Of a stretch of DNA of 64,000 bases, positions 20,151-34,920 are shown piece after piece (the stretch's first letter is position 1; every line of letters begins with the position of its first letter). This DNA is from Aestuariivirga litoralis (GTDB lineage Bacteria > Pseudomonadota > Alphaproteobacteria > Rhizobiales > Aestuariivirgaceae): the NCBI RefSeq assembly GCF_015714715.1, contig NZ_WAHS01000002.1, positions 868,001 to 932,000 of the forward strand, in the 5' to 3' direction. A program made the position numbers and the translations under genes. The notes beneath the pieces are model-generated. The model was not told the origin of the DNA. It saw only the letters and a program-made list of their open reading frames with translations, and ran no database searches.

Positions 20151-20159
20151 ATGCAAACG

Positions 20160-21464
20160 ATGCGAAAAGAGACAATTGCAATTCACGCAGGCTACGAGCC
20201 GGACGAGGCCGTGAAGTCCGTTGCCGTGCCGATCTATCAGACGGCGGCCTATGCGTTTGACAGTGCCGATCATGCTGCCGCTTTGTTCAATCTGGAAGCT
20301 GAAGGCTATCGCTACAGCCGCATTTCCAATCCCACCGTTGCCGTTCTCGAACGCCGCGTGAATGATCTTGAAGGTGGTGTAGGCGCCATGGCCACCGCCA
20401 GTGGCCAAGCCGCACTTCATATGGCTCTTATCAATCTCGCTGATCAGGGCGGCAATATCGTCACCGTGCCGCAGCTTTACGGCACCACCCACACTTTGAT
20501 TTCCCACATCCTGGAACGCCAGGGTGTGGAAGCGCGCTTTGCCGCGTCCGACAAGCCAGCCGACGTGGCCAAGATGATCGATGAGAACACCCGCGCGGTG
20601 TTCTGTGAATCAATCGGCAACCCTGCTGGCAATGTCTGTGATATCGAAGGCCTGGCCAAAGTGGCGCATGCCCATGGCGTGCCCTTCGTCGTCGACAACA
20701 CCGTGGCTACGCCGTTGTTGTTGCGCCCTTTCGAATATGGCGCAGACATCGTCGTTCACTCGCTTACCAAATTCCTTGGCGGCCACGGCACCACTTTGGG
20801 CGGCGCGGTCGTTGACGGCGGCACTTTCGATTGGAAGGCCAATGGCAAACGCTTCCCTGCGTTCGTCACGCCCGACAAAAGCTATCACGGCATGATTTAT
20901 GCCGAGCGTTTCGGTAAATCCGCTTACATTGAACGCGCCCGCAGCGTCTATCAGCGCACCATGGGTGCAGTGCTTTCGCCCTTCAACGCCTTCCTGCTGC
21001 TGCAGGGCATCGAAACCGTGGCTCTGCGTATGGAGCGCCACACCGAGAATGGCCGCAAAGTAGCTGAATTCCTGCGCGCCGACAGCCGCGTCGATTGGGT
21101 GAATTATGCCGGCTTTGCCGACAGCGCCTACAAGCCGCTGGTCGATAAGTATCTGGCCGGCCGCGCTTCGTCGCTGTTCACCTTCGGCATCAAGGGCGGC
21201 ATGGATGCCGGCAAGCGCTTCTATGACGCGCTTAATCTCGTTACGCGTCTCGTCAATATTGGCGACGCCAAGTCGCTCGCCTGCCACCCGGCTTCTACCA
21301 CCCACCGCCAGATGAGTCCGGAAGATCAGCTCAAGGCCGGCGTGAAACCCGAAACGATCCGTCTTTCAATCGGCATTGAACATATCGACGACATCATCGC
21401 CGATCTCGATCAGGCGCTGGGTGCCGCGACCGGCAAATCCACTTTTGCCAAGGCAGCGGAGTAA
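20160..21464 (+). CDS. metY: O-acetylhomoserine/O-succinylhomoserine sulfhydrylase (MetY/MetZ type)
   Basis: A 434-residue PLP enzyme of the Cys/Met metabolism family that joins an activated homoserine to sulfide, giving homocysteine. The N-terminus ETIAIHAGYEPDEAVKSVAVPIYQT, split here across the PLP fold, is diagnostic; the PLP lysine is K204 in HSLTKFLGGHG, and the C-terminus has the GIEHIDDIIADLDQAL signature. ATG 20160 is preferred to ATG 20151 because AGGAAG abuts 20151 directly but lies 9 bases before 20160. metA follows, so this is the direct-sulfhydrylation route to methionine. Confidence 0.92.
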   Translation: MRKETIAIHAGYEPDEAVKSVAVPIYQTAAYAFDSADHAAALFNLEAEGYRYSRISNPTVAVLERRVNDLEGGVGAMATASGQAALHMALINLADQGGNIVTVPQLYGTTHTLISHILERQGVEARFAASDKPADVAKMIDENTRAVFCESIGNPAGNVCDIEGLAKVAHAHGVPFVVDNTVATPLLLRPFEYGADIVVHSLTKFLGGHGTTLGGAVVDGGTFDWKANGKRFPAFVTPDKSYHGMIYAERFGKSAYIERARSVYQRTMGAVLSPFNAFLLLQGIETVALRMERHTENGRKVAEFLRADSRVDWVNYAGFADSAYKPLVDKYLAGRASSLFTFGIKGGMDAGKRFYDALNLVTRLVNIGDAKSLACHPASTTHRQMSPEDQLKAGVKPETIRLSIGIEHIDDIIADLDQALGAATGKSTFAKAAE

Positions 21465-21476
21465 GAGGGCGTGCCC

Positions 21477-22490
21477 ATGTCCCGGATGATTTACAGTGGC
21501 AGCAAATCTTTCCAGGCCCCGCGCCTGGAATCGAGGCCCTGGCCGCAAGGGCATGGTGGCCCGGTGCTCGAAATCGGCCTCGTCAACAACATGCCGGATT
21601 CTGCGCTGCTGGCCACCGAACGCCAGTTCGTCAATCTGGTGCAGAATGCAGCTGCGGGCCGTTCCGTGCGCATTAAATATTTCTCGCTCCCCTCTGTACC
21701 GCGCTCAACACTCACCCAAGACAGGATGCGCGGCCAATATCGTGGCCTCGCCGAGCTGGAAAATTCCACGCTTGATGCCCTGATCGTCACTGGAACTGAG
21801 CCCAAGGCGCCGAAGCTGCGCGATGAACCCTATTGGAACGAGTTCAAGACGCTGGTTGATTGGGCCGCTGAAAACACCAAGTCCACCGTCTGGTCCTGCC
21901 TTGCCGCCCATGGTGCAGTCCTCCACATGGACGCCATCCAGCGCCGCCCGCTGAAGGAAAAATGTTCAGGCGTTTATGAAGGCGAAGTTCTCGCCAAGGA
22001 CCCGTTGTTGCAGGGCTTCAGTGCGCCTTTGCAGATTTGCCATTCGCGCTGGAACACGCTGGATGCCGGTGAGCTGTCGCGCGCTGGATACCGCGTGCTC
22101 AGCCAATCGATCTTTGCGGGCGTTGATACCTTCACCAAGAATGTCGGCAGCCAGTTCATTTTCTATCACGGCCATCCGGAATATGATGAAGCCTCGCTGC
22201 TCAAGGAATACCGCCGTGACGTGACGCGTTTCCTGAACCAAGAACGTGAAAACTATCCGGGCCTGCCGCATGGCTATTTCGATGCTGCTTTGGAAGCGGG
22301 CCTTCGCGATTTCCGCAGTAAGGCGGAAAGTCGTGACGTGAATGCCACGCTGGAAAATTTCCCCGAGCTCGCCCCGCGGGCCGGTCTGGCCCAGGACATC
22401 GGCTCGACGGCTGATCAGCTCTACCGCAATTGGATCAACGGCCTGTTCGAAAGCGTTTCAGGCGAAACCGGGATGACCGCAAAAGCATGA
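21477..22490 (+). CDS. metA: Homoserine O-acyltransferase, alphaproteobacterial MetA type
   Basis: A 337-residue homoserine acyltransferase of the MetA (HTS) family, supplying O-acyl-homoserine to MetY. The catalytic Cys141 is in VWSCLAAHGAVLH, the acidic/basic pair in KEKCSGVYEGEV, and the His-Glu dyad in FYHGHPEYDEAS. The N-terminus (LEIGLVNNMPDSALLATERQF) differs from enterobacterial MetA but matches the alphaproteobacterial branch. Whether it uses succinyl- or acetyl-CoA cannot be decided by eye. ATG 21477 follows AAGAGGG; GTG 21471 is a poorer alternative. It lies 12 bp after metY. Confidence 0.88.
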   Translation: MSRMIYSGSKSFQAPRLESRPWPQGHGGPVLEIGLVNNMPDSALLATERQFVNLVQNAAAGRSVRIKYFSLPSVPRSTLTQDRMRGQYRGLAELENSTLDALIVTGTEPKAPKLRDEPYWNEFKTLVDWAAENTKSTVWSCLAAHGAVLHMDAIQRRPLKEKCSGVYEGEVLAKDPLLQGFSAPLQICHSRWNTLDAGELSRAGYRVLSQSIFAGVDTFTKNVGSQFIFYHGHPEYDEASLLKEYRRDVTRFLNQERENYPGLPHGYFDAALEAGLRDFRSKAESRDVNATLENFPELAPRAGLAQDIGSTADQLYRNWINGLFESVSGETGMTAKA

Positions 22491-23008
22491 CCGCCCGCGC
22501 CCGCATTGATTCTCCACCGCCCGTCAGTGAAGCTACGGGTGCGGAATTCCGTGAAGCCATGCGCCAGCTCGCTGGTGGCGTGAGTGTGGTGACCACCGGC
22601 CGTGGCCGCCTGCGCACAGGTCTTACGGCCACCTCGGTAACATCACTGTCCGCTGAGCCGCCGTCACTGTTGGTCTGCATCAACAAATCATCATCAGCTC
22701 TGCTCACCCTGCGCGAAACCAAGACCTTCGCGGTGAACATTCTGTCGGCGGGCCAGCAGGATATTGCGGATCGCTTCGCCGGCCGCTCCGGCGTCTTCGG
22801 TGCCGCGCGCTACGCCGGTGCTGATTGGGACAGCCTTGCGACCGGAACGCCGGTGCTTGAAGGCGCGCTCGCCAATCTCGATTGCCGCGTTGAAAACATT
22901 TCCGAATGGAACAGCCACGCCATCGTCATCGGCCGCGTGGTGGCCATCAAAACGCCGGGTGGGAATAGCCCGCTGGTCTATTGGCGCGGGAATTACGCGG
23001 GGATCTGA
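22487..23008 (+). CDS. Flavin reductase domain protein (FMN/FAD:NAD(P)H reductase family)
   Basis: A 173-residue protein with the flavin-reductase-like fold: FREAMRQLAGGVSVVTT, GLTATSVTSLSAEPPSLLVCINKSS (read as two adjoining strands) and FAVNILSAGQQDIADRF. Members supply reduced flavin to two-component monooxygenases. The ATG overlaps the metA stop by four bases (ATGA), so it is translated with the methionine genes, although no partner monooxygenase lies nearby. A link to sulfur oxidation or desulfonation would fit the context but is only inference. Confidence 0.87.
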   Translation: MTARARIDSPPPVSEATGAEFREAMRQLAGGVSVVTTGRGRLRTGLTATSVTSLSAEPPSLLVCINKSSSALLTLRETKTFAVNILSAGQQDIADRFAGRSGVFGAARYAGADWDSLATGTPVLEGALANLDCRVENISEWNSHAIVIGRVVAIKTPGGNSPLVYWRGNYAGI

Positions 23009-23036
23009 TCCCACAACTCATATCTCCGCCCTCTAT

Positions 23037-23112
23037 CGTCATCCCCGCGAAGGCGGGGATCTGTGTTTTAGTGGCCGGGTAAACAGAGATTCCCGCCTGC
23101 GCGGGAATGACG
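23037..23112. repeat. Dispersed palindromic element, copy 2
   Basis: A 76-bp imperfect inverted repeat: CGTCATCCCCGCGAAGGCGGGGATC on the left (two halves), GATTCCCGCCTGCGCGGGAATGACG on the right. Same family as 11887-11969 and 35001-35085. It separates convergent genes (flavin reductase and cupin). Confidence 0.85.
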
Positions 23113-23119
23113 AGCAACG

Positions 23120-23578
23120 TCAGTTCGCGCTCATAGCCATCGCACCAGCGGGGCGCGTTGCAGTACCACCAGCCTTGCGCTTCAGCTTGTTCATCACGCG
23201 GATGGCAAAGCCGATCGGGCCAGGAACTGTGCGGCGGAAAAATGCGAGTTTGCGGATCTGCTGTTCAATGTGCCAGTTCGCCACGGCACCTTTCTTGAAA
23301 TACAGAACATCGCCCGGACCAAGGCGCTTCGGCGCCATGCCGTCAGCTGAAATCACCACCGAGCCTTCGAGGAAATAGATCGTCTCGTCACTGTCATAGT
23401 GCCATTCAAACTTGCCCGGTGTGCACTGCCAGACGATGGTGGTGGCGGTGCCGTCGGCGCTGGTGGCCAGAACGGCATTGCTGGCCATCGGGTCGCCCTC
23501 ATGGATCCAAGCCGGCTCAATCGGAGAGGGAGAAAGCGCCACGTCAGTCTTGGCGGTGATGATGAGCGGATGGGTCAT
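23120..23578 (-). CDS. Cupin-domain protein (EutQ/DUF861-like)
   Basis: A 152-residue single cupin. The barrel signature is visible in EWHYDSDETIYFLEGSVVIS and PGDVLYFKKGAVANWHI, with H and E residues of a possible metal site; the third ligand type varies in this group. Sequence around WIHEGDPMA resembles proteins annotated as ethanolamine-utilisation-like or sugar-binding cupins. ATG 23578 is chosen over GTG 23584. It reads alone, divergent from the flippase gene; no function can be assigned. Confidence 0.82.
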   Translation of the reverse strand: MTHPLIITAKTDVALSPSPIEPAWIHEGDPMASNAVLATSADGTATTIVWQCTPGKFEWHYDSDETIYFLEGSVVISADGMAPKRLGPGDVLYFKKGAVANWHIEQQIRKLAFFRRTVPGPIGFAIRVMNKLKRKAGGTATRPAGAMAMSAN

Positions 23579-23735
23579 GGTCACTTTCCGTTGAAAATTT
23601 TGGCTATCTGTCAGCCATTAATCAGGATTTTGCTTAAAAAACGGTAAGCTTGTCCAGTGCAACTTGCCGGATTGGTAAAGGGATTTTTAATCGCGTAAGC
23701 CCATGTTGCGCCTGAATTCAATTTCGGGAGTTGCC

Positions 23736-25070
23736 ATGTCCAGGCTCTGGTCCTTGCTTACCGGTTCAGCCGGCCTGTTCGTCATGCGCCTCGGAGGCGC
23801 AGGATTGGGGTTTATCACCCAGATCCTTTTGGCCCACATGCTGGGCAGCGAAGAGCTTGGCCTGTTTTATTCAGCCACATCGCTCGCAGCTGTGGCGGGC
23901 TTCGTCACCTCGCAAGGCTATTCCCAGATTGCCTATCGCTTTTCGGCCCGCTACCGCGACGATCATCACGAGCATCTGTTCCGCGCCTTTGTCTCGCGTG
24001 CCACTTATGATGGGTTGATCTGTTCGACGGTTGCCGCAGCCATCGTCGTTGCCATCAGCTTCCTCTATCCCGGCCTCGACCAGATGACCCGCCTGATCTA
24101 CGCCATGGCCGGCGCCACCATCATTCCGGCTGCGGTTCTGGTGCTTTACACCAATCTGTCAGGCGCGATGCGCAAGTTCGGCTGGTGCTATGTGCCGGAT
24201 GGTCTGGCAAGGCCGCTGGCATTGCTGGTTTTCGTGGTGGGCCTGCGTCTCGCCCTCGGTGCGATCAGCGCCGTCACGGTCATGTTCATTTTCTCGGCGA
24301 TTGTGATTGTCACGGCTATTGCCGTGGTGATGGCTTTGCGCCCGTATTTGCCGAAGTTTGAATGGCCGCAGCATTCCGGCCGCAGGCTGGCCCGCCGCTG
24401 GCGCGCTGAAGCTTTGCCTCTGGTGATGCTGTCGCTTTACACCAACACCTTTGCCGATGTGAGCATCCTCTTCGCCTGGCCTTTTCTCAGCGCATCCAAC
24501 CTCGCTGTCTTCGGCGTGTGCCTGAAGCTTTCGCTGCTGATCGGCTATTTCGTACAGACGGCGCAGCAGATGGTCATTCCTGATATCGCCGATGCGCGTG
24601 AACGCCGCGATATTCCCGCCATGCGCCGCGCCGCCAAACGGTCTGTTGTCCTGCCGGTGCTGGCCACCAGCAGTGCGGCCATCATCTGTGCCATTCTGGG
24701 ACGCGAGATCCTGAGCTTCTTCGGCGCTGAATTTGCCGGCGCCACGTCCGTGCTGGTCATCATGGTGGCAAGCCAGGTGGTGCGCGCACTCGCAGGCCCC
24801 AGCGCCCATGTGCTCACGCTGTCAGGCGCGCAAAAAATCAATGCCATGCTCTGTGTGGGCGCGCTCATTGTGCTGGCCGCTGCCAATGCCGTACTAGGTC
24901 CGCGCCTCGGGCCTGAAGGTGCGGCCTGGGCTGTCTTTATCAGCTATACGGGTTGGATTGCGGCCACTGCGGTGGCGATTACCAGGCTGGGTGAAATGCG
25001 CACCGATTTGATTGCGCTGGTGCTCACCCACAAATTCCGCAAATCATCGCATCCGATGCCGGCGGAATAA
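23736..25070 (+). CDS. Polysaccharide/lipid flippase of the MOP superfamily (Wzx-like)
   Basis: A 444-residue protein with about 12 hydrophobic segments and the N-terminal GLFVMRLGGAGLGFITQILLA-type start (in two parts) of O-antigen and exopolysaccharide flippases; the helix pattern of paired domains is also seen. Such proteins move lipid-linked sugars or lipids across the inner membrane. GGGAG before ATG 23736 supports that start rather than ATG 23703. It lies directly before the carrier-protein cluster, convergent with the first carrier gene, and could export that cluster's product, but this is inference from position. Confidence 0.83.
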   Translation: MSRLWSLLTGSAGLFVMRLGGAGLGFITQILLAHMLGSEELGLFYSATSLAAVAGFVTSQGYSQIAYRFSARYRDDHHEHLFRAFVSRATYDGLICSTVAAAIVVAISFLYPGLDQMTRLIYAMAGATIIPAAVLVLYTNLSGAMRKFGWCYVPDGLARPLALLVFVVGLRLALGAISAVTVMFIFSAIVIVTAIAVVMALRPYLPKFEWPQHSGRRLARRWRAEALPLVMLSLYTNTFADVSILFAWPFLSASNLAVFGVCLKLSLLIGYFVQTAQQMVIPDIADARERRDIPAMRRAAKRSVVLPVLATSSAAIICAILGREILSFFGAEFAGATSVLVIMVASQVVRALAGPSAHVLTLSGAQKINAMLCVGALIVLAAANAVLGPRLGPEGAAWAVFISYTGWIAATAVAITRLGEMRTDLIALVLTHKFRKSSHPMPAE

Positions 25071-25098
25071 TCCGGCATCGTCATTCTACGAGGGAAGT

Positions 25099-25365
25099 TT
25101 AGGCGACGGCTGCCAGCTTCTGCTTGCTGCTGAGAGCCGAGATCATTTTTTCCACGCTGGCCACCGAGTGGAAATGTTCTGGCGTCAGGAATTCAGCCGG
25201 GATCATCATGTTGAACTTGGCTTCAACGCCCAGCATCAAATTCATCATGTCCATCGAGGTGAGGCCAAGCTCAGCCAGGCCGCGTTCCGGTGTCACTTCT
25301 ACCTTGCAGCCCGAAGACGCCAGAATGGACTTCACCAGAGTTTCGATTTCAGCACGCACGTTCAT
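25099..25365 (-). CDS. Acyl/aminoacyl carrier protein (first of two)
   Basis: An 88-residue carrier protein: a four-helix domain with the phosphopantetheine attachment serine S37 in ELGLTSMDMMNLML and the helix-3 segment PAEFLTPEHFHSVASVEKMI. Small stand-alone carriers of this type are the acceptors of amino acid:carrier-protein ligases; here the ligase gene is 1.6 kb away on the other strand. ATG 25365 is chosen because AGGAAAG is 8-9 bases upstream of it; ATG 25371 would leave almost no spacing. It lacks the DSLD motif of the fatty-acid ACP, in line with a specialised role. Confidence 0.88.
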   Translation of the reverse strand: MNVRAEIETLVKSILASSGCKVEVTPERGLAELGLTSMDMMNLMLGVEAKFNMMIPAEFLTPEHFHSVASVEKMISALSSKQKLAAVA

Positions 25366-25687
25366 TCGCATCTTTCCTGTTTTGTCAGACTGGGACAGTT
25401 CGGATGACGTCTCGCAAGACCCGTGCCGGAATTTTTGAAATTGAACCATGCGCCAAGTCTTAGCCGGGTTTGGGAAACAAAGTCTTAGCGGCAGCAACCT
25501 ATAATTGTTTGAATAGATATGAAATTATCAAAGTTGCGTGCCGCTCTCCGATCTTAACGATTGATTAACTTCAGATTCTCTCAGCCTTTGAAAGGCTTGG
25601 TGCATTAGCCTTTTCGTAAGCGCGGAGCACGATCTTGGCACACGGAGTGCAAAGAACAGAAAACAACGGCCAGAGGACCATGGCCAG
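25366..25687. other. Divergent promoter region between carrier protein and acyl-CoA-dehydrogenase-like gene
   Basis: A 322-bp gene-free stretch, less GC-rich than its surroundings, controlling both sides of the carrier-protein cluster. The only structure I see is a 10-bp direct repeat, AAGTCTTAGC, at 25455-25464 and 25480-25489 (25 bp start to start). No convincing -35/-10 pair, tRNA or small coding gene was recognised. Confidence 0.5.
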
Positions 25688-25711
25688 ATGTTTCAAAACG
25701 GAGTGCAGCAG

Positions 25712-26947
25712 ATGAACGTCATCAATGTGAATGAGGCCAGCAAGCGCAAACATGTGCCGCTTGAAACGGGAATTCCCGCTTCCCTGAAATTGAGCGATCT
25801 CACCGCCCGCGTCGCTGAAGTGGCAGCCATTGCCGCCGCGCATGCTGGTGCTGTCGACCGCGACGCGCGCTTCCCCATTGAAGCCATCACCGCCGCCAAG
25901 AAGAACCGCTTGCTGGGCGTGCTCGTTCCCACCGAATTTGGCGGCGATGGCGCTGAGATCCATGATGTCATGGATATGTGCTTCGCTTTGGGCCGTGCTT
26001 GCTCTGCCACTGCGATGATCATCGCCATGCATCATGTCAAAGTGGCCTGCATCACTCGCCATGGCCGCGGAACGGCCTGGATGGAAAACATGATGCGCGC
26101 GATCGCTGATGATCAGCTGCTCATGGGCTCCTCCACCACGGAAGGTAATAATGGCGGCAATGTCCGTTCATCCGCCGCTGCTGCCGAAGTGGCAGATGGC
26201 AAGTTCTCGCTGCTGCGCGATGCCTCGGTCATTTCCTATGGTGCCGAATGCGATGGCATCGTGACCACCGCGCGCCGCGCCATTGATGCCGCCAGTTCCG
26301 ACCAGGTGCTCGTTGTGCTGCGCAAGGCTGACTATGATCTCGAAATCACTCAGGGCTGGGAAGTGATGGGCATGCGCGGCACGCGCTCCACCGGCTTCAA
26401 GCTCAAGGCCGAAGGCCTTGCCGAACAGGTGCTGGTCGAAAGCTACGACAAGATCCACAAGGAATCGATGGTGCCTTACGCCCATCTCGTGTGGGGCTCG
26501 GCCTGGACCGGCATTTCCGCTTCCGCTGTGGACAAGGCGCAAGCTTTCCTGCGCAAGGTCGCCCGTTCCGCCAATGGCGTGATGCCTCCGGGTGCTGTTC
26601 ATTTCGGCAAGGCCAAGGCCACGTTGAATCGCGCCCGCGCATTGCTCACCTCGATGGGTGATTATTTCCACCGCATCAAGGACGACAAATCAGCCCTTGC
26701 TTCGCTTGAATTCCAAGCGGCCATTTCTTCGCTCAAGATCGAAGTATCCGATCTCGCGGTGGAAACCGTGCTCGCAACCCTGCGCGCCAATGGCCTGTCG
26801 GGTTACCGCAATGACGGTGAGTTCAGCGTCAGCCGCGAACTGCGCGACGTGCTGTCTTCGCCGCTGATGATCCACAATGACCGTATCGCCGCCAACATGG
26901 CCACCGCGAACTTGATGGCCGCCGTTCCAACCTCGCTCCGCGCTTAA
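25712..26947 (+). CDS. Acyl-CoA dehydrogenase-like flavoenzyme of the aminoacyl-carrier cluster
   Basis: About 411 residues with the acyl-CoA dehydrogenase fold: N-terminal helical domain, middle beta domain with the SSTTEGNNGGNVRS and WEVMGMRGTRSTGF stretches, and C-terminal helices. It is a distant member: the usual C-terminal catalytic glutamate loop is not obvious to me. Position immediately before the amino acid:carrier-protein ligase (17 bp) suggests that it oxidises a carrier-bound aminoacyl or acyl thioester, as the prolyl-carrier dehydrogenases of pyrrole pathways do; this is inference. Start alternatives are ATG 25688 (AGAGGA upstream) and ATG 25712 (GGAG upstream). Confidence 0.85.
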   Translation: MNVINVNEASKRKHVPLETGIPASLKLSDLTARVAEVAAIAAAHAGAVDRDARFPIEAITAAKKNRLLGVLVPTEFGGDGAEIHDVMDMCFALGRACSATAMIIAMHHVKVACITRHGRGTAWMENMMRAIADDQLLMGSSTTEGNNGGNVRSSAAAAEVADGKFSLLRDASVISYGAECDGIVTTARRAIDAASSDQVLVVLRKADYDLEITQGWEVMGMRGTRSTGFKLKAEGLAEQVLVESYDKIHKESMVPYAHLVWGSAWTGISASAVDKAQAFLRKVARSANGVMPPGAVHFGKAKATLNRARALLTSMGDYFHRIKDDKSALASLEFQAAISSLKIEVSDLAVETVLATLRANGLSGYRNDGEFSVSRELRDVLSSPLMIHNDRIAANMATANLMAAVPTSLRA

Positions 26948-26964
26948 AGAAAGAGACCCGTCAG

Positions 26965-27909
26965 ATGAACATGATTTCGATGAAAGAGTTCAAGCCCAAG
27001 GAAACCGTCAAGTCGGCCGATCCGCTGGATCCGCTGCGTGACGTGCTGTTCCATGAAACCGGCGTTGATGGCGTCTATGTCCGCACGGGTCTTTATGAAG
27101 GCCTGGTCGAACAGATGGCCGCGATGATCACGAGGCACCGCGAAGCCGGTTGCGAGATCATGCGCTTTCCGCCCGTATCCAGCCGCGCGATGATTGAAAA
27201 ATCCGGCTATCTGAAAAGTTTTCCCAATTTGCTCGGCTGCGTCTGCGGCCTGCATGGCTCGGAAGCTGAAGTGCTCGATGCTGTGAACCAGTGGGACAAG
27301 GGCAATGGCTCCTGGTCCGACAAGACCACAGCGTCTGACCTCGTACTGGCTCCTGCCGCCTGCTATCCGGTCTATCCGATTGCCGCCAAGCGCGGACCCC
27401 TGCCCAAGGGCGGCGTGACCTTTGACGTTCTGGCCGATTGCTTCCGCGCCGAGCCGTCGAAGCATCTCGACCGGTTCCAGTCGTTCCGCATGCGTGAATA
27501 TGTCTGCGTCGGCACTGCCGATGACGTGGCCGCTTTCCGCGACCGCTGGATGGAAAAGGCCCAAGGCATTGCGACCACGATGGGCCTGAAGTTCCGCGTG
27601 GATACGGCGTCTGATCCGTTCTTCGGCCGCGTTGGCGCCATCAAGGCGGTGAGCCAGGTGCAGCAGGCGTTGAAGTTCGAACTTCTGGTGCCGCTGCGTT
27701 CGGACGAAAGTCCGACCGCCTGCATGAGCTTCAACTATCACCGTGACCATTTCGGCACGACCTGGGACATCAAGGACGTGAACGGCGAACCGGCTCACAC
27801 CGGCTGCGTCGCCTTCGGCATGGACCGTCTGGCAGTTGCCATGTTCCACACCCACGGCACCGATACTGCCAAATGGCCGAAGAAAGTCCGCGAATTCCTG
27901 GCGATGTAA
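26965..27909 (+). CDS. Amino acid:[carrier protein] ligase, class II seryl-tRNA-synthetase-like
   Basis: A 314-residue homologue of the catalytic core of atypical SerRS without a tRNA-binding domain. The family activates a small amino acid (glycine or alanine in characterised rhizobial members) as adenylate and loads it on the phosphopantetheine arm of a carrier protein. Motif 2 is CFRAEPS...RMREYV (Arg161, Glu163) and motif 3 is GCVAFGMDRL (Arg288). C133, E178 and C281 fit the zinc-ligand set of the family. It follows the flavoenzyme by 17 bp and ends at a strong terminator; a carrier gene is close by, as in known examples. Confidence 0.9.
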   Translation: MNMISMKEFKPKETVKSADPLDPLRDVLFHETGVDGVYVRTGLYEGLVEQMAAMITRHREAGCEIMRFPPVSSRAMIEKSGYLKSFPNLLGCVCGLHGSEAEVLDAVNQWDKGNGSWSDKTTASDLVLAPAACYPVYPIAAKRGPLPKGGVTFDVLADCFRAEPSKHLDRFQSFRMREYVCVGTADDVAAFRDRWMEKAQGIATTMGLKFRVDTASDPFFGRVGAIKAVSQVQQALKFELLVPLRSDESPTACMSFNYHRDHFGTTWDIKDVNGEPAHTGCVAFGMDRLAVAMFHTHGTDTAKWPKKVREFLAM

Positions 27910-27932
27910 TTTCGCTAGAGATTAAATGCAAC

Positions 27933-27960
27933 AGGCCCGGAGCAATCCGGGCCTTTTTAT
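27933..27960 (+). terminator. Rho-independent terminator after the carrier-protein ligase
   Basis: AGGCCCGGA (27933-27941), loop GCAA, TCCGGGCCT (27946-27954): a perfect 9-bp stem running into TTTTTATTTT. It closes the dehydrogenase-ligase pair and sits in the gap to the convergent reductase gene. Confidence 0.93.
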
Positions 27961-27983
27961 TTTGATCTCGCAGATGAGGACTC

Positions 27984-28718
27984 TTAAGCCGTATTCCCGG
28001 CGTCCACCGTCATCACCGTGCCGGTAATATTCCGCCCGCCATCGCCCATCAGGAATTCCACCATGCGAGCAATATCGTCAGTCTCCGCCAACCGCCGCAA
28101 CGCCGAGCGCCCAGCAATCTTGGTCATGGCGGCTTCGTCCATGCCCTTGGTCAGCTCCGTCGCGATGAATCCCGGCGCCACGACATTCACCGTGATGCCC
28201 ATCTTTCCCACTTCGCGTGCCAGCGAGCGGGTGAAGCCCTCCAGTGCGGCCTTGGTTGCTCCGTACACTGACAAAGCATTGTAACCCGTCGATCCGATGA
28301 TCGAGCCCATATTGATGATGCGGCCTGCACCGTCAGACAGCATGTGCCGCACCAGATATTTGGTCAGCACGATCGGCGCTTCGACATTCACCCGCAGCAA
28401 TTCCGAAATCTGGCTTTCATACATCGTCGCCAGAACGCCTTCGGTGCCAATGCCCGCATTGTTGACGAGCCCATAAACCGGGCCCAGCTCCTTGCGCAAA
28501 TCGCGCAGGAAATTCGGAAAGGTCTCAATCGCCTTCACATCCAGCGCCCTGAAATGAATGGGGCCGGCCTTGTTCGCTTCCGCTTCCTTGATCGCCGCCG
28601 TCAGCACTTCGCTTTCCGAGCGCGCCACCGCAATCACCTGATAGCCGGCGTTCGAAAGCCGCTTCACGATGGCCAGGCCAATGCCGCGGCTTCCGCCGGT
28701 GACGAGAACATTACGCAA
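27984..28718 (-). CDS. Short-chain dehydrogenase/reductase, FabG-like
   Basis: A 244-residue classical SDR resembling 3-oxoacyl-ACP reductase. Seen: the NAD(P) site VLVTGGSRGIGLA, the NNAG motif in LVNNAGIG, the catalytic Ser in NMGSIIGS, YGATK for the Tyr-Lys pair and PGFIATELT after it. The start is probably TTG 28718 (M-R-N-V-L-V-T-G-G), overlapping the stop of the ligase gene by 8 bp; a TTG at 28754 is possible but adds atypical sequence. Being the third gene of carrier-ligase-reductase suggests a carrier-bound beta-keto or similar substrate. Confidence 0.88.
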   Translation of the reverse strand: MRNVLVTGGSRGIGLAIVKRLSNAGYQVIAVARSESEVLTAAIKEAEANKAGPIHFRALDVKAIETFPNFLRDLRKELGPVYGLVNNAGIGTEGVLATMYESQISELLRVNVEAPIVLTKYLVRHMLSDGAGRIINMGSIIGSTGYNALSVYGATKAALEGFTRSLAREVGKMGITVNVVAPGFIATELTKGMDEAAMTKIAGRSALRRLAETDDIARMVEFLMGDGGRNITGTVMTVDAGNTA

Positions 28719-30090
28719 GATGGCGCACCAATTTTCCGTTTGCTGAAACTTCAATCACCGGCACCAGCGAAATCAGCGCCGGCACCTTGTGCGCCGGCAG
28801 CTTGGCCCGCGCCGATGCCATGATGTCATTCTTGATATCGGGGATGTTCTCATAGCCATCGCTAAGCACCACGTCGGCCACAACAATCGCACCGGTGAAC
28901 GGGCTCTTGCGTGACTTGACGCGCGACATGCGCACGGCCGGATGCATGTTGAGCGCGGCTTCAACTTCTTCGGGGTGAACCTTCAATCCGCCCACATTGA
29001 TGATGCCGCCCTTGCGGCCCACGAAATAATAGCGTTGGCCACGCAGCTCCACCATGTCGCCGGTATCGACAAAACCTTCCGCGTCGAGAAGCACAGGGGC
29101 CGCTTCGCCCACATAGGTCAGCGCTGCACGCTGCGAGCGGATGAACAGCGTGCCATCCACCACTTTCATTTCCACATGGCCGGGCTTGCCGACTAACGAA
29201 GCCGGAAAACCTTCCAGCCCGTCATCTACCGCAAAGCCCACGCCTGCCTCTGTAGAGGCATAGGCATGCCCGATGGCAGCGTTGGGAATCGTTTTGCGCA
29301 AACTGTCGAGCACAGCCTGATCAGCAATCTCGCCAGACAAGCGCACATAATTGGGTTTGAACGCAGCCAGTGCGTCGCTCATCAGCGCCTTGCGCCAATG
29401 CGAAGGTGTGCCGGAAATATGGGTAACACCGGCGGCGCTCAGGCGCGCCAGATGATCCACCAGAGTCTCATGCGGTTCAGACAAAACCAAGCTGCCGCCG
29501 CCCACCAGAGCGCGCAGCAAAATCTGCAAACCGCCATAGCGCCGAATGTCATAGAATGTGGCCCAGACGGGATTGGCAGCCGTGCTGCCAGCAATCGCAC
29601 CCGTCAGTCCATCCAGCGTATGCGCCACGATCTTCGGGCGCCCGGTGGTGCCTGATGTCAGCATCAGCCATTTTGTATCTTGCGAAGCCATCGGCGGATT
29701 CTGGTGGGTGCCCGCAGGCAGCGGCCAGAACGGCTGCGCCACAACGCCAACCCCAAGCTCGCTCCACGGCAAAAGATCATCGGCAATGACGGCATCAATT
29801 TCGGCATCGGCCAGAATGGGCGCACGATGTTCCGCCAGCAGATCAGGCGGTGCGAGCAGAATGCGCGCCGCTGTGCCATCCAGCGCGATCAACGCGAGTG
29901 CCGCATCCAATTGGTGCGTCACCGCGATCATCACATTGCGGCCAGCAAAGCGCGTGAGTTCGCAGCCCGCAAGCGCCCCTTGCGCGGCTTCGGCCAGTGT
30001 TACTCTGCGGTGGCCATCAGCCAGCCAGCGTGTTTCAAGTCCATCGCCCAGTCTCTGGGCGAGCGGCTTGCGATCAGGCCGCAACGGCAT
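28711..30090 (-). CDS. Adenylate-forming acyl/aryl ligase (ANL family)
   Basis: A 459-residue AMP-dependent synthetase, shorter than most acyl-CoA synthetases because the N-terminal subdomain is compact. Core motifs: LTSGTTGRPKIVAHT (A3), YASTEAGVG (A5), DTGDMVEL (A7), GRKGGIINVGGLKVHPEEVE (A8) and the C-terminal lysine in SANGKLVR (A10). It overlaps the second carrier gene by 17 bp, so it probably loads that carrier with a carboxylic acid; the acid cannot be predicted. It overlaps the reductase downstream by 8 bp. Confidence 0.88.
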   Translation of the reverse strand: MPLRPDRKPLAQRLGDGLETRWLADGHRRVTLAEAAQGALAGCELTRFAGRNVMIAVTHQLDAALALIALDGTAARILLAPPDLLAEHRAPILADAEIDAVIADDLLPWSELGVGVVAQPFWPLPAGTHQNPPMASQDTKWLMLTSGTTGRPKIVAHTLDGLTGAIAGSTAANPVWATFYDIRRYGGLQILLRALVGGGSLVLSEPHETLVDHLARLSAAGVTHISGTPSHWRKALMSDALAAFKPNYVRLSGEIADQAVLDSLRKTIPNAAIGHAYASTEAGVGFAVDDGLEGFPASLVGKPGHVEMKVVDGTLFIRSQRAALTYVGEAAPVLLDAEGFVDTGDMVELRGQRYYFVGRKGGIINVGGLKVHPEEVEAALNMHPAVRMSRVKSRKSPFTGAIVVADVVLSDGYENIPDIKNDIMASARAKLPAHKVPALISLVPVIEVSANGKLVRHLA

Positions 30091-30322
30091 GCTCGTAAGA
30101 CTTGACGAAATCGCCAAGCGTCACCGGGAAATAGGCATCATCAGAAGCGGTGAACGGATCAATGCCCAGCTTGTCTTCCAGCCGTGCCACGAGAATGGCA
30201 AAGCACAAAGAATCGAGGCCGGAATCGAGCAGCACCAGATCGTCCGAAAGCGGCGCCAGCGTCTTGTGCTGGTCCTTGGCGATGTCGGCGATCAGCTGAT
30301 AAACTGTTAACTTTGTTGACAT
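30074..30322 (-). CDS. Acyl carrier protein (second of two)
   Basis: An 82-residue carrier protein with the attachment serine S38 in LLDSGLDSLCFAIL, the classical DSL motif, and helix-3 region DAYFPVTLGDFVKSYE. ATG 30322 is used; the longer frame to 30352 adds ten residues not typical of carriers. First gene of the coupled operon carrier-ligase-SDR, divergent from the GNAT-like gene with about 70 bp between starts. It differs clearly in sequence from the first carrier at 25099-25365, so the two probably serve different thioester substrates. Confidence 0.9.
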   Translation of the reverse strand: MSTKLTVYQLIADIAKDQHKTLAPLSDDLVLLDSGLDSLCFAILVARLEDKLGIDPFTASDDAYFPVTLGDFVKSYEHAVAA

Positions 30323-30395
30323 TTGTTGGAACCCTGTTGGTGGATTGGTCACCTCGGGAACCTATCGTTTAATCCTAAACACGAGGTAAGTTTTG

Positions 30396-31277
30396 ATGAG
30401 CGTTGCGGCGGCACCCGAGAGAAAAGTGCGGTGTCGGTTAATAGCCGAAGGTGATCTGGAAGCGGTGGCCGACCTGCTGGCCCGCGGCTTCGAGAAGCGC
30501 CCGCGCAGCTATTTCCTGAACGGCCTGTTGCGCCTCGCCGCGCGCGCGGTGCCTGAAGGCCTGCCGCGCTTTGGCTATATGCTGGAAGCCGAGGGTCGCG
30601 CCGTGGGTGCCGTGCTTCTGGCCTTCTATCAGCGGCCGGGCCTTGATGAGCCCCGCTGCAACATTGCCTCTTGGTATGTGGAGCCCGCGCACCGCATGCA
30701 CGCCGCCATGCTGTCTTCCATGGCGCTGAAGCAGAAGCAGGTGACCTATCTCAACGTCACTCCCGCCGCCAACACCTGGCCGATCCTCGAAGCGCAGGGT
30801 TACAAATGCTATTGCAAGGGCTTGATGCTGGCCTTCCCGGCGTTGTCGGGTTCTGCTGGCGTCAGCATTGAGCGCGTCACGCCAAATACTAAAGCCGTAG
30901 CGGGCCTGCCCGATCACGAAGTGCAGATGCTGAAAGAGCAACTCGCTTATGGCTGCGTCAGCCTCATCGCCCGCAAAGGCGGCGCGGCAATGCCTTTCGT
31001 CTTCCTGCCGTTCCGCATGCGCTCAGGCCGCGTGCCTCTGCCGCTGATGCAGCTGGTCTATTGCCGCAACGTTGATGAATTCGTGGCCTGCGCCGGCCCC
31101 TTGGGCCGTGCCTTGCTCAAGCACGGCAAAATTGGCGTGTTGGTCGATGCCGATGGAAAAATTCCCGGCCTGATGGGTGCCTTCACCGAAAAACGCGGCA
31201 AGAAATTCTACAAAGGCCCCGGCCACCCGCAGCATGGCGATTTGCTGGATACCGAGTTCACGCTGTTCGGGCCCTAA
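30396..31277 (+). CDS. GNAT-like acyltransferase of the carrier-protein cluster
   Basis: A 293-residue protein whose first half has a GNAT-type pattern: LIAEGDLEAVADLLARGF, a central beta strand with VGAVLLAFYQ, then VEPAHRMHAAMLSSMAL and NVTPAANTWPILEAQGYKCY, which is like the C-terminal half of GNAT folds. The second half (residues 150-293) is not recognisable. GAGGT 8 bases before ATG 30396 fixes the start. Divergent from the second carrier operon, it is a candidate for transferring a carrier-bound acyl or aminoacyl group to an amine or hydroxyl; no substrate is visible. Confidence 0.65.
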   Translation: MSVAAAPERKVRCRLIAEGDLEAVADLLARGFEKRPRSYFLNGLLRLAARAVPEGLPRFGYMLEAEGRAVGAVLLAFYQRPGLDEPRCNIASWYVEPAHRMHAAMLSSMALKQKQVTYLNVTPAANTWPILEAQGYKCYCKGLMLAFPALSGSAGVSIERVTPNTKAVAGLPDHEVQMLKEQLAYGCVSLIARKGGAAMPFVFLPFRMRSGRVPLPLMQLVYCRNVDEFVACAGPLGRALLKHGKIGVLVDADGKIPGLMGAFTEKRGKKFYKGPGHPQHGDLLDTEFTLFGP

Positions 31278-31278
31278 A

Positions 31279-32157
31279 TCAGCCCTTGTGCGCGAACTTC
31301 CAGTAAAGCTCCCGCGCCTTGGTATAAACGGGCCCGGGCTGCAGCTCGCGCTCATCGATCCGCGTGATCGGTGAAACCTTGGCGAAGTTGCCGCAGGTGA
31401 ACAGCTCGTCGGCATCCTGAAACGCCTTGTAGCGCAGCATGTCTTCCTTCACTTCATAACCCGCATCGCGCAGCAGCCCGATCATCCGTGAACACGTAAT
31501 GCCAGCGAGAAATGTGCCATTGGCCGCAGGTGTATAAACCACGCCATCCTTCACCATGAACACATTGGAATTCGCCGTCTCCGCCACATTCCCCAACATG
31601 TCGCGCAGCAGGCAATTGCTGAAGCCGCGTTGCTCCGCTTCGATAATGGCGCGTGCGTTATTGGGGTAGAGGCACCCCGCCTTGGCATCGACCGGTGCGT
31701 TCTCCGCGGTGGGCCGCCGGAAGGGCGACAGCGTGACGGATGCGCCGGTCGGCTTGGTCATCGGGGCTTCATGGATGCACAACGCCCAATTGGTGCTTTC
31801 CGGATCATAGCGCACGCCACCACCCGCCATGCCGGCCTCGGCCCAATACATCGGGCGGATATAGAGCTCAGGCTTCGTGCCAAATTTCGCAATGCCATCT
31901 GCCGCCAGATCCATCCACTGCTGATGCGGCACCTTGGCCTTGAGCTGGAAGTTCTCGGCCGAACGGTTCACCCGCGCCAGATGCAGGTCAAGATCGGGTG
32001 TGACCCCTTCAAACGCCCGCGCGCCGTCGAAAATGGTGGAGCCGAGCCAGGCCGCATGGCTGCGCACGCCGAGGATTTTCACATTGCCCTCCTGCCACTG
32101 GCCCTCGAAATAGGTCCAAGTCTTGGTGATGGCAGAGGCGTGATGTCCGTGGCTCAT
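31279..32157 (-). CDS. Class IV PLP aminotransferase, branched-chain amino acid type
   Basis: A 292-residue fold-type IV transaminase. The PLP-binding lysine is in DAKAGCLYPNN, and GFSNCLLRDMLGNVAETANSN (read across the E-x-N pair) and VYTPAANGTFLAGITCSRM match branched-chain aminotransferases (IlvE-like). It interconverts branched-chain amino acids and 2-oxo acids, or a similar substrate. The start at 32157 (MSHGHHASAITKTWTYF) is preceded by AGGA; the frame open to 32409 overlaps the divergent esterase and is not used. It ends 1 bp from the convergent GNAT-like gene. Involvement in the cluster is possible but not shown. Confidence 0.9.
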   Translation of the reverse strand: MSHGHHASAITKTWTYFEGQWQEGNVKILGVRSHAAWLGSTIFDGARAFEGVTPDLDLHLARVNRSAENFQLKAKVPHQQWMDLAADGIAKFGTKPELYIRPMYWAEAGMAGGGVRYDPESTNWALCIHEAPMTKPTGASVTLSPFRRPTAENAPVDAKAGCLYPNNARAIIEAEQRGFSNCLLRDMLGNVAETANSNVFMVKDGVVYTPAANGTFLAGITCSRMIGLLRDAGYEVKEDMLRYKAFQDADELFTCGNFAKVSPITRIDERELQPGPVYTKARELYWKFAHKG

Positions 32158-32236
32158 GATTTTGTCCTGTGCGAATGCTGCGCTAGCTTTGTCACGAATC
32201 AATTCCGAAAAGAACCCACGATGCTGCTGGACTGCC

Positions 32237-33154
32237 ATGCCTCTTGATCCCCGCGCCGCCCGCTTTCTGGAGATGATGGCGGTCGGCCGCGTGAAATCGC
32301 AGACCCGCGACATTGCTGATCGCCGCCTGGGCCTGCAGAAGCTCATGGCCTTCGCCAAGGCCGACCATATGTCGCCGCCGGGCACAGATTTGACTTTGAA
32401 TGACTCCATCCCGGCGCGTCTCTACGTGCCGGAAGGTGCGGAGAATCAAATCACGCCCGGCATCATCTTCTTCCACGGCGGCGGACTGGTTGCGGGCTCT
32501 ATTGATACCCATGACGTCATCGCCCGCGCGCTTTGTGCCTCTAGCAGCTGCCGGTTGATCTCAGTCGGCTATCGCTTGGCACCCGAGCATCCTTTTCCCG
32601 CTGCCCTTGACGATGCGATCGCCGCAGGCGGAGCAATTTGCACCAAAGCCGGAAATATTAATATCGATCCGAAACGAATAGCGTTGGTCGGTGAATCCGG
32701 GGGCGGTGCGCTGGCTTTGCTCAACGCCCATGAGCTGAAAGAGTTCACCTTTGCGCTGCTTTTTCTGATCTGTCCGGTGCTCGATTTCGCATCCGAATCA
32801 GATTCCAGGAGAGAATTTGCCGAGGGATATCTGATTGATAGGGTGGTGATCGAGGGCGATCTGGCGGATGTGCTGCAGGGCAGGGCTGAACGCACCGACC
32901 CTCGCGTGTCGCCGCTTCATTTAACCGGGCTGGAAAGGTTGCCGCCCACCATCATCCACACTGCGGAATACGATCCATTGCGCGATGAGGGTAATAGTCT
33001 CGCATCGAAACTATCAAACGCTGCTGTGAGGGTGACGCTCCATCAGCATGCAGGAATGCTGCATAATTTCCACGCGCTGGGCGGCATCATTCCACAGGGT
33101 CGCGAAGCCCTGCAGGCGATGGGTGAGGAAATCGGGAAAGCCTTGCGCGCCTAA
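32237..33154 (+). CDS. Alpha/beta hydrolase, hormone-sensitive-lipase (HSL) family esterase
   Basis: A 305-residue esterase. The oxyanion HGGG motif is in FFHGGGLVAGS, the nucleophile elbow in VGESGGGALALL, the acid in TAEYDPLRDEG and the histidine in HAGMLHNF: the complete triad of the HSL family. No signal peptide, so cytoplasmic. Start ATG 32237 (MPLDPRAARFLEMMA) is the family-like N-terminus. It is divergent from the aminotransferase and overlaps by 4 bp, tail to tail, with the acyl-CoA synthetase. Natural substrate unknown; short acyl esters are usual. Confidence 0.9.
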   Translation: MPLDPRAARFLEMMAVGRVKSQTRDIADRRLGLQKLMAFAKADHMSPPGTDLTLNDSIPARLYVPEGAENQITPGIIFFHGGGLVAGSIDTHDVIARALCASSSCRLISVGYRLAPEHPFPAALDDAIAAGGAICTKAGNINIDPKRIALVGESGGGALALLNAHELKEFTFALLFLICPVLDFASESDSRREFAEGYLIDRVVIEGDLADVLQGRAERTDPRVSPLHLTGLERLPPTIIHTAEYDPLRDEGNSLASKLSNAAVRVTLHQHAGMLHNFHALGGIIPQGREALQAMGEEIGKALRA

Positions 33155-34920
33155 AGCTGCGCGGAACCGGCCATAATGGCATCGAAGCGATCCGGCGTGA
33201 GCGGCACATAGCTTTTGGCCGCGTTGTCGATAATCAGCACCGGGTCATTATCCTCTGATGGCGCAAAGCCTTCTTTCGCCAGATCGGTCTTCTTCTGCTT
33301 GAACGTCTCAGTCAATTCCATGCCCGAGCGCAGGCGCAGGAACAGCGGACGCGCATAGACGGGCAGCGCCGCAGCTAGAGATTTGTAAACCAGATTCGGA
33401 TCGAAACCAGGCTCGCGCACAATGGCCGCCATGCCGGCTTTTCCGTCTGAACCGGGAATGGCAACGCCATATACATTCACATCCGCCACGCCGTTGATGG
33501 CTGCGATAGCAGCGGCGACTTCCGCAGTGGCGACATTCTCGCCTTTCCAACGAAATGTATCGCCGATCCGGTCGACGAAATAATAGAAGCCCTTGTCATC
33601 CAGCCGCATCAGGTCGCCGGTGCGGAACCAGGCATCGCCCTGCTCCAGCACGTCACGCAGAACCTTGCGCTCGGTTTCGCCTTCATCGGTATAGCCTTCA
33701 AAGCGCCCGCCGCCGGGGCCGGAAATGCGGCCCAGGGCCTCGCCGGGTTCGCCGCGCTCGGCAGCGATGCACAGCCCATCGGGCCCGCGCAAAGGCTTGC
33801 CGGTTTCAGTATCGAATTTCACAATCGCCGCCGGGAAGCGGTGCGAGATGAAAGGCGGGATGCGCCCGATCGAACCCGGCTTGCCTTCAACATTGAACAG
33901 CGAAAAATTGCCTTCGGTAGCGGCATAAAATTCCAGGATTTGCGGAATGTTGAAGCGGCTCTGGAACGCTTCCCACACGTCGCCGCGCAACCCATTGCCG
34001 CAAGCCAGCCGCAGCCGGTGGTTCTGCGATTCTTCCGAGGCAGCCGCCTTTAGCAGATACCGGCAAAGCTCGCCGATATACTGGAACATGGTGCAGTCCC
34101 ATTTCACGATATCGGCCCAGAAGCGCCGCGCCGAGAATTTCTCGGCCAGATAGACCGACCCGCCCGAAACCATCATGCTGGCAATGGCGACAACGCCGCC
34201 CACACTGTGATGGATGGGCAGGCAATTATACAGGCGGTCGGCGGGCGAAGCTGCCATTAGCCCGGCAAACCAGTGGCCCCAGCTCATCACCCGGTGATGG
34301 CTCACATAGGCCGCCTTGGGCAGGCCGGTGGTGCCGGATGTGTAGATCAGCAAGGCGCGGTCGCGGATGGTGACGGAAGGCCGCTGCGACGCGTTCAGCC
34401 TTTCGCCGGGAAAGGCCCGCAGCGCAGCTTCAAGTTCGTCTTCAAGAATCCAGAGCCTCGCAGCGGGCGCGACTTCGCGCACGGCATCCGCCAATGCGGT
34501 AGCCACAATCACATGCGAAGCCTTCGCCACGTTCAGCGCATGCGCCAGCGATGGCCCGTGAAGTTGCGTGTTGACCAAGGCCACGATTCCGCCAACGGCA
34601 GTGATGCCGGTCCATGCGGCAATGTAATCCGGGCAGGTGGGCACAATCAGCGCCACGCAATCGCCGGGCTTCACATTCTGCGCCAGCGCCCAGCGGGCAT
34701 ATTGATTCACTTTGGCCGAAAGCGCGCCATAAGTGAGCGTTGCGGCTGACGAAAGCAAAGCCGGTGCCTGCGGTTGCTTCTCCGCCCAATCGGCAATCAC
34801 ATCAGCAAACAGCCGGTTCGGCTGCGGCTCGATCCGCGCCGTCAATTCCATCGCCTTCAGCCACAGCCGCGAAGGCGGCAGCGGCTTGGGCGGAATGATT
34901 TCGAGAGCGGCAACAGACAT
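33151..34920 (-). CDS. Long-chain acyl-CoA synthetase (FATP/FadD6-like)
   Basis: A 589-residue AMP-forming fatty-acyl-CoA synthetase. Motifs: LLIYTSGTTGLPKAAYVSH, EFYAATEGNFSLFN, FRTGDLMRLD, RIGDTFRWKGENVATAEV and the C-terminal lysine in ELTETFKQKKTDL. The YAATEGN form groups it with fatty acid transport protein-type synthetases for long or very long chains. It activates free fatty acids to CoA esters, either for beta-oxidation or to supply an acyl chain to the neighbouring carrier-protein cluster. A palindromic repeat lies in its upstream region. Confidence 0.9.
   Translation of the reverse strand: MSVAALEIIPPKPLPPSRLWLKAMELTARIEPQPNRLFADVIADWAEKQPQAPALLSSAATLTYGALSAKVNQYARWALAQNVKPGDCVALIVPTCPDYIAAWTGITAVGGIVALVNTQLHGPSLAHALNVAKASHVIVATALADAVREVAPAARLWILEDELEAALRAFPGERLNASQRPSVTIRDRALLIYTSGTTGLPKAAYVSHHRVMSWGHWFAGLMAASPADRLYNCLPIHHSVGGVVAIASMMVSGGSVYLAEKFSARRFWADIVKWDCTMFQYIGELCRYLLKAAASEESQNHRLRLACGNGLRGDVWEAFQSRFNIPQILEFYAATEGNFSLFNVEGKPGSIGRIPPFISHRFPAAIVKFDTETGKPLRGPDGLCIAAERGEPGEALGRISGPGGGRFEGYTDEGETERKVLRDVLEQGDAWFRTGDLMRLDDKGFYYFVDRIGDTFRWKGENVATAEVAAAIAAINGVADVNVYGVAIPGSDGKAGMAAIVREPGFDPNLVYKSLAAALPVYARPLFLRLRSGMELTETFKQKKTDLAKEGFAPSEDNDPVLIIDNAAKSYVPLTPDRFDAIMAGSAQL

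Follow-up and report, generated by a model that had tools for sequence, protein, structure and literature searches.

The closest described relatives of the genes treated here are the amino acid:carrier-protein ligases, whose specificity is given as glycine or alanine in one paper (PMC5370406) and whose biological role is called unknown in a 2022 review (PMC9437257). A trio of ligase, carrier and redox enzyme had already been described in 2010 together with a proposed role, in which amide formation was suggested for Atu2574, a conserved uncharacterised protein, and monooxygenase activity for the redox enzyme (PMC2922099); the DUF1839 family, to which we take Atu2574 to belong, was later classed as papain-like (PMC10318531). 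We analysed a stretch of 64,000 nucleotides of Aestuariivirga litoralis (contig NZ_WAHS01000002.1, positions 868,001 to 932,000; hereafter the window), which holds such a trio at 25099-27909. The ligase family, its carrier, the adjoining redox gene and one of its gene layouts (class C below) are known already; what appears to be new is a wider conserved gene set around the trio, which in the window comprises 15 genes over 14.8 kb (20151-34920). The first-pass annotation of this DNA had treated three genes as the unit and their purpose as undefined: the coupling of the trio stands, but the real unit is a conserved set of about 15 genes, and the purpose, although called unknown in 2022, had a proposal in print in 2010. 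No description of the wider set (classes A and B below) was recognised in the open-access literature, subscription papers including the founding PNAS paper lying outside that scope. The trio consists of three genes:

25099..25363, minus strand: CP1, an aminoacyl carrier protein with a GLTS motif, Ser37 being the predicted phosphopantetheine site (PF00550, E 2.2e-5; 4h2s_C, E 6.9e-19)
25688..26947, plus strand: ACAD, a flavoenzyme of acyl-CoA-dehydrogenase fold without the catalytic Glu, a possible flavin monooxygenase (PF02771, E 4.2e-10; fold matches; I395)
26965..27909, plus strand: LIG, an amino acid:carrier-protein ligase of class II with a SerRS-like core (NF005479, 3mey, tree)

LIG begins 17 bp past the stop of ACAD, and CP1 is divergent from this pair. 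The ligase (314 amino acids) scores 448.9 bits against NF005479, the model for amino acid--[acyl-carrier-protein] ligases (E 7.6e-135; curated cut-off 357), and matches the SerRS model of 518 positions at 243-503 only, so that the tRNA-binding N-terminal part is absent. Its best solved relatives are the Bll0957 entries, for example 3mey (E 5.3e-156); of the 303 residues that align with Bll0957, 221 are identical, and the zinc set C133/E178/C281 is identical in all 101 aligned ligases, Bll0957 among them. On these sequence matches LIG is assigned to the known amino acid:carrier-protein ligases, with aminoacylation of a carrier as its predicted activity, and because it belongs to that family the ligase itself is not new; its position in the Bll0957 clade suggests that the amino acid is probably glycine. 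CP1 matches the carrier chain of 4h2s, a solved entry with an aminoacyl carrier protein and a ligase, and the GLTS serine is kept in 120/120 carriers aligned across classes A, B and C. The CP1 coordinates assume the start MNVRAEI, under which the serine of GLTSMD is residue 37; an alternative in-frame start lies at 25369. The first-pass annotation had described, at this place, a class II ligase without tRNA-binding domain and with its Cys133/Glu178/Cys281 set intact, a small carrier with S37 and a family specificity for glycine or alanine; the ligase score, the zinc set, the carrier match and the serine conservation bear that description out, and the specificity agrees with the literature cited above.

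Gene surroundings were compared at 160 loci with a recognised ligase, drawn from the best 80 of 581 matches, 80 further-genome stretches and the window, with content counted within about 10 kb to either side of LIG; the 160 include duplicates (L002 and L178 are apparently one genome, and L036 shares a contig with L041). Class A (25 loci) has the trio together with three or more of the wider-set genes, and class B (70 loci) has the trio with a GNAT gene and is mostly Bradyrhizobium by selection, because the best 80 of the 581 matches were taken. CP1, ACAD and LIG occur together in all 95 class A and B loci, with CP1 divergent in every one, a recurrence far beyond chance. Class C (44 loci) carries DUF1839 and a GH2 glycosidase in 44/44, ACAD in 43 and CP1 in 25 at the threshold used, which may miss divergent carriers; where detected, the carrier is on the same strand. 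Class D (12 loci) joins a ligase to a small protein (CP3) and an MBOAT in all 12 and to a DltD-like protein (our own label) in 11. Four flavoenzyme-ligase pairs fall outside these classes (CP1 is recognised in two of them, and in neither L147 nor L148), and the other loci number five. In a ligase tree of 101 rows, for which class B was thinned to 10 of its 70 loci, class C forms one clade (44 rows, support 100/95) and a second (40 rows, 96/95) unites classes A and B with Bll0957 and the four pairs; within it, the window ligase and Bll0957 share a clade of 29 rows (100/99).

Bll0957 (PDB 3mey), which we take to be Gly:CP ligase 1 of Bradyrhizobium, agrees with the window in family, clade and zinc set and, with its carrier (4h2s), in the carrier-flavoenzyme-ligase layout in Bradyrhizobium. 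It differs in that the window ligase stands in one contiguous 15-gene set, whereas in the genomes inspected of family code f3, genus code g14, which we regard as Bradyrhizobium, the genes are distributed over three separate places. The operon of the Atu2571-2574 type, presumably equivalent to the class C layout CP-ACAD-LIG-DUF1839-GH2, has a homologous carrier, flavoenzyme and ligase, but its ligases form a separate clade, its carrier, where detected, is on the same strand, and DUF1839 and a glycosidase accompany it with no GNAT, AMPL, HST or metZ label nearby. This class C operon, with a mannosidase-like GH2, was seen in L127-L139, L142, L165-L167, L169, L170, L172-L176, L245-L268 and others, and all class C loci fetched give DUF1839 in 68/68 and GH2 in 67/68, which fits the 2010 note on Atu2574. 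The Dlt system (DltA-DltC-DltB-DltD) likewise has a stand-alone ligase that loads an amino acid on a small carrier, but the window has no MBOAT among the scanned genes, and its ligase is of class II and not DltA-type. A divergent ligase branch of about 400 amino acids that keeps the zinc set (137-173 bits to NF005479) was found in the class D-type loci L150-L155, L157-L160, L201 and L202 (e.g., L152:6400-10677), eight of these 12 being from the window's own genus. Its partners are a DltB-like MBOAT (TIGR04091, E 1e-50, below cut-off), a DltD-like protein with a weak DUF1574 match and a protein of 85 amino acids that is carrier-like by eye (DSLR motif) without a family match; class D is possibly a Dlt-like surface aminoacylation set with an aminoacyl-tRNA-synthetase-type ligase in place of DltA.

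Around the trio, the window set is made up of twelve further genes:

20151..21464, plus strand: metZ-like O-acylhomoserine sulfhydrylase-family pyridoxal-phosphate enzyme, an extra paralogue (TIGR01326, 605 bits; cut-off 495.1)
21471..22490, plus strand: HST, homoserine O-succinyltransferase (MetA) family, an extra paralogue (NF003776, 392.7 bits; cut-off 358)
22430..23008, plus strand: flavin reductase, a possible partner of ACAD (PF01613, E 2e-42)
23120..23584, minus strand: cupin (PF05899, E 5.4e-22)
23703..25070, plus strand: Wzx/PST-type flippase-like exporter, not a core gene (PF01943, E 1.6e-10)
27984..28754, minus strand: SDR, a FabG-like reductase (PF00106, E 6.1e-53)
28711..30117, minus strand: AMPL, an AMP-forming acyl/aminoacyl ligase, the probable loader of CP2 (PF00501, E 2.3e-24)
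30074..30352, minus strand: CP2, a second carrier protein with DSGLDSL (PF00550, E 4.4e-5)
30393..31277, plus strand: GNAT, a tandem GNAT-fold acyltransferase, candidate amide-forming enzyme (fold matches of the AlphaFold2 model)
31279..32409, minus strand: BCAT, a class IV (branched-chain type) aminotransferase (NF009896, 454.4 bits; cut-off 262)
32252..33154, plus strand: alpha/beta hydrolase of the HSL family (PF07859, E 3.1e-57)
33154..34920, minus strand: FATP-type long-chain acyl-CoA synthetase (NF006134, 726 bits; cut-off 625)

Near LIG in the 25 class A loci are found GNAT (21), BCAT (20), metZ and HST (18 each), the hydrolase (17), CP2, AMPL and the cupin (12 each), SDR (11), FATP (10, a count that probably includes one unrelated acyl-CoA ligase in L002) and a thiamine pyrophosphate enzyme (9) that is absent from the window. 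Gene order is permuted between lineages and content is largely kept. In the f3 g14 genomes the three places hold trio-GNAT, metZ-HST (L205-L212) and FATP-AMPL-SDR (nine loci, L225-L233, with SDR adjoining AMPL and CP2 labelled only in L228). G555 and G523 have the set in two parts, of which the second runs BCAT-hydrolase-FATP-metZ-HST-flavin reductase (L213, L214). The flavin reductase adjoins metZ/HST in L213, L214 and L218 and lies about 7 kb off in L216; in the window its open reading frame, as called, overlaps the 3' end of HST by about 60 bases (22430-22490), which suggests translational coupling or a later start. The flippase was rejected as a core gene, a close copy (at least 45% identity) being found in only 5 of 24 genomes of the ligase branch. 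Outside the set, the minus-strand run at 35102-39924, which opens with genes for a GFO/IDH/MocA oxidoreductase and an amidohydrolase, is probably an unrelated sugar operon.

Co-occurrence across the order ties these genes to the ligase even where they are not neighbours. The order searches with ligase, GNAT and AMPL are taken as covering the same 397 genomes, since identical handles recur; a ligase match was found in 94 and exceeded the cut-off in 87. All 87 were classed by tree or locus content, 23 to the branch of classes A and B and 64 to class C (DUF1839 in 64, GH2 in 63, with the single miss, L261, on a short contig); in the final classing by fetched loci, 24 over-cut-off ligases fell in class C and five f3 genomes in class B. 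AMPL at E 1e-70 is present in 23/23 A/B-branch genomes vs 3/374 others (G625, G258, G713), and a GNAT homologue in 23/23 vs 2/374 at E 1e-35 (G625, G258) or 6/374 at E 1e-20, the four weak matches outside the branch having E 1e-21 to 1e-22; Fisher p values, with kinship ignored, are 2.2e-34 for AMPL and 2.5e-35 for GNAT. The other two partners were sought in 24 branch genomes (the 24th, G036, lies outside the 397) and in 33 controls picked by hand, 26 of them (G625 and G258, taken for their AMPL, included) from families in which branch genomes occur as well and seven from f105, f8 and f4. HST at E 1e-30, a cut that also hides the second copy in the window's own genome, gave 24/24 vs 0/33, and a metZ orthologue (at least 68% identity, E 1e-201 or better) likewise 24/24 vs 0/33, the best metZ-family match in the controls being 52% identical (3.6e-138) and nine controls lying at E 1e-130 to 1e-138.

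Partners are present even when unlinked (in G103, LIG lies at 603 kb, metZ at 1322 kb and AMPL at 2018 kb of contig C1), and three f3 g14 genomes in which no ligase was matched (G267, G284, G354) also lack HST and AMPL; on/off pairs that agree in this way are found inside three genus codes (g1, g13, g14) and inside five family codes. The conservation across Rhizobiales that the first-pass annotation proposed to look for is thus found, with branch and partners in 23 of 397 genomes. The cluster is accessory, the ligase exceeding the cut-off in only 3 of 37 genomes of the window's own genus. In Bradyrhizobium diazoefficiens, bll0957 and bll0958 are listed as increased, both as transcript and as protein, when phaR is mutated, and a metZ gene (bll1105) is listed as increased in that mutant too (PMC10888616).

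These data lead us to propose, at slightly less than an even chance for the model as a whole, that the trio forms one of two arms in a conserved small-molecule pathway with two carriers. Support for the gene set is good; its chemistry, and with it every step after charging by the ligase, is inferred. LIG would very probably activate an amino acid, glycine to judge by its clade, and load it onto the phosphopantetheine of CP1. The glycyl group on the carrier would then be oxidised by ACAD, which most likely acts as a flavin monooxygenase of the two-component kind, supplied by a flavin reductase. The second arm would supply a partner: metZ and HST stand beside second copies in their own genome (48% and 33% identity, the latter with E 6.0e-27), and these extra copies point to homoserine being activated and its gamma group replaced. 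Housekeeping methionine genes were rejected for the pair, because the genome has other copies and the orthologues follow the ligase branch. AMPL, CP2, SDR and the FATP-type ligase may prepare an acyl unit, and the tandem GNAT would take the acyl group, once modified, off its carrier and pass it to an amine, in this model the homoserine-derived partner. The AlphaFold2 model of GNAT (predicted local distance difference test, pLDDT, 79.1) matches tandem GNATs (VipF, 2wpw) at low TM-scores of 0.29-0.54; GNAT has no Pfam family, and its sequence profile matched no solved chain at E 1. The solved carrier-GNAT entry 8zt4 was matched by CP1 (E 6.4e-5) and not by the GNAT profile. The first-pass annotation had spoken of a nonribosomal pathway; no multidomain nonribosomal peptide synthetase was found in the 20 Pfam-scanned window genes (15999-37290), only the stand-alone AMPL and the carriers (the other loci were not searched for such synthetases), and amide formation is more likely the work of the tandem GNAT. 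It is possible, though in our judgement less likely than not, that the Bll0957-type ligases serve an undescribed dual-carrier pathway that leads to specialised metabolites of a new class: GNAT would couple an oxidised (perhaps N-oxygenated) glycyl thioester, made by this relative of the aminoacyl-tRNA synthetases, to a homoserine unit on which the dedicated MetA/MetZ paralogues have placed a gamma substituent.

The role proposed in print is different: the amino acid, redox-modified on the carrier, would be attached to a cell-surface polymer through one of its amino sugars, and in the window GNAT would take the part that Atu2574 plays there and the flippase would export the product. The proposal was made for ligase, acyl carrier protein, redox enzyme, Atu2574 and glycosidase (PMC2922099), and the constancy of DUF1839 and GH2 in class C speaks for it, as do the flippase adjoining the trio in the window and in P. 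hirschii and the pairing of the divergent ligase branch with a DltB-like MBOAT. For classes A and B, however, we consider it unlikely: DUF1839 or GH2 is found in 0 of their 95 loci, the scarcity of close flippase copies in the branch argues against export by this route, and the strict link to HST, metZ and AMPL is left unexplained.

The only Pfam match of ACAD in the scan is the acyl-CoA dehydrogenase N-terminal domain PF02771, and the first-pass name of a dehydrogenase-like enzyme holds as homology, but I395 aligns with the catalytic Glu (YEG) of dehydrogenase 8i4p and is Ile in 27/27 aligned relatives; a plain acyl-CoA dehydrogenase was rejected because this Glu is missing. In a PDB fold search the ACAD model gives the monooxygenases TdsC/DszC at ranks 1-4 (TMq 0.78-0.79) and a dehydrogenase at rank 5 (0.74); from there on similar-scoring dehydrogenases are interspersed with monooxygenases, KijD3 and DnmZ both ranking within the first 20. 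ACAD is thus comparable to the group D two-component flavin monooxygenases (DszC/TdsC, KijD3, DnmZ) in fold, in the absent dehydrogenase Glu and in the flavin reductase of the window set (22430-23008), which fits an oxygenase reading, but it differs by its 15-20% identity in the fold search and by a presumably carrier-bound substrate. From its sequence ACAD is probably not an alpha,beta-dehydrogenase, and the model suggests that it may be an oxygenase of the flavin monooxygenase type. Oxidation of the carrier-bound amino acid to an imine or dehydroamino acid on CP1, as by prolyl-carrier dehydrogenases, would agree with the profile matches to the prolyl-ACP dehydrogenase 4irn and to 6cxt_B (a dehydrogenase whose entry has a carrier-like chain) and with the dehydrogenases that head the sequence matches and fill much of the fold list; the Ile at the Glu position, the four leading monooxygenase folds and the lack of a beta carbon to desaturate in glycine nevertheless make such a course improbable.

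Sulfhydrylase-family enzymes also use carbon and nitrogen nucleophiles. A link to sulfur or methionine salvage, in which the MetZ-like enzyme would handle a thiol (e.g., methanethiol) and the glycyl-carrier arm would conjugate the resulting sulfur amino acid, draws on the dedicated MetA/MetZ paralogues, the cupin and the MtnP/MtnA-like genes flanking CP1 in Bradyrhizobium, but is very unlikely given this wider range of nucleophiles, the presence of FUB7 among the matches and the restriction of those neighbours to Bradyrhizobium, where they were identified by eye with no family search. At L005:5788-7785 the two genes resembling MtnP and MtnA belong to clusters 7 and 8 (69 and 68 members).

Several observations count against the two-carrier pathway or against parts of it. 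No metabolite is known for the gene set. The genome counts are phylogenetically non-independent, 10 of the 23 branch genomes belonging to one genus code. G625 and G258 carry CP2-AMPL-GNAT-FATP (L239, L240) with no A/B ligase, HST or metZ orthologue, which shows that the second arm can exist by itself, although in G258 no SDR of the kind in question is labelled nearby. The sole GNAT matches in G218 and G791 are unlinked, and their identity of 38-40% resembles that of the second copies in G254 (39%) and G757 (42%); their orthology is therefore unsure and they may be paralogues. The flavin reductase is near LIG in 1 of 25 class A loci (the window) and the flippase in 6. As for ACAD, its predicted structure has a mean pLDDT of 75.6 with weak stretches, and dehydrogenases are its top matches by profile sequence search and also close by fold.

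The conserved gene set points to a small-molecule pathway in soil bacteria. Co-occurrence names the partners of the ligase as GNAT, AMPL, HST and metZ, with CP2, SDR and FATP clustered beside them, and the amino acid:carrier-protein ligase family is divided into branches with different partners. The role of these ligases becomes testable through a handful of gene deletions and a comparison of metabolites.

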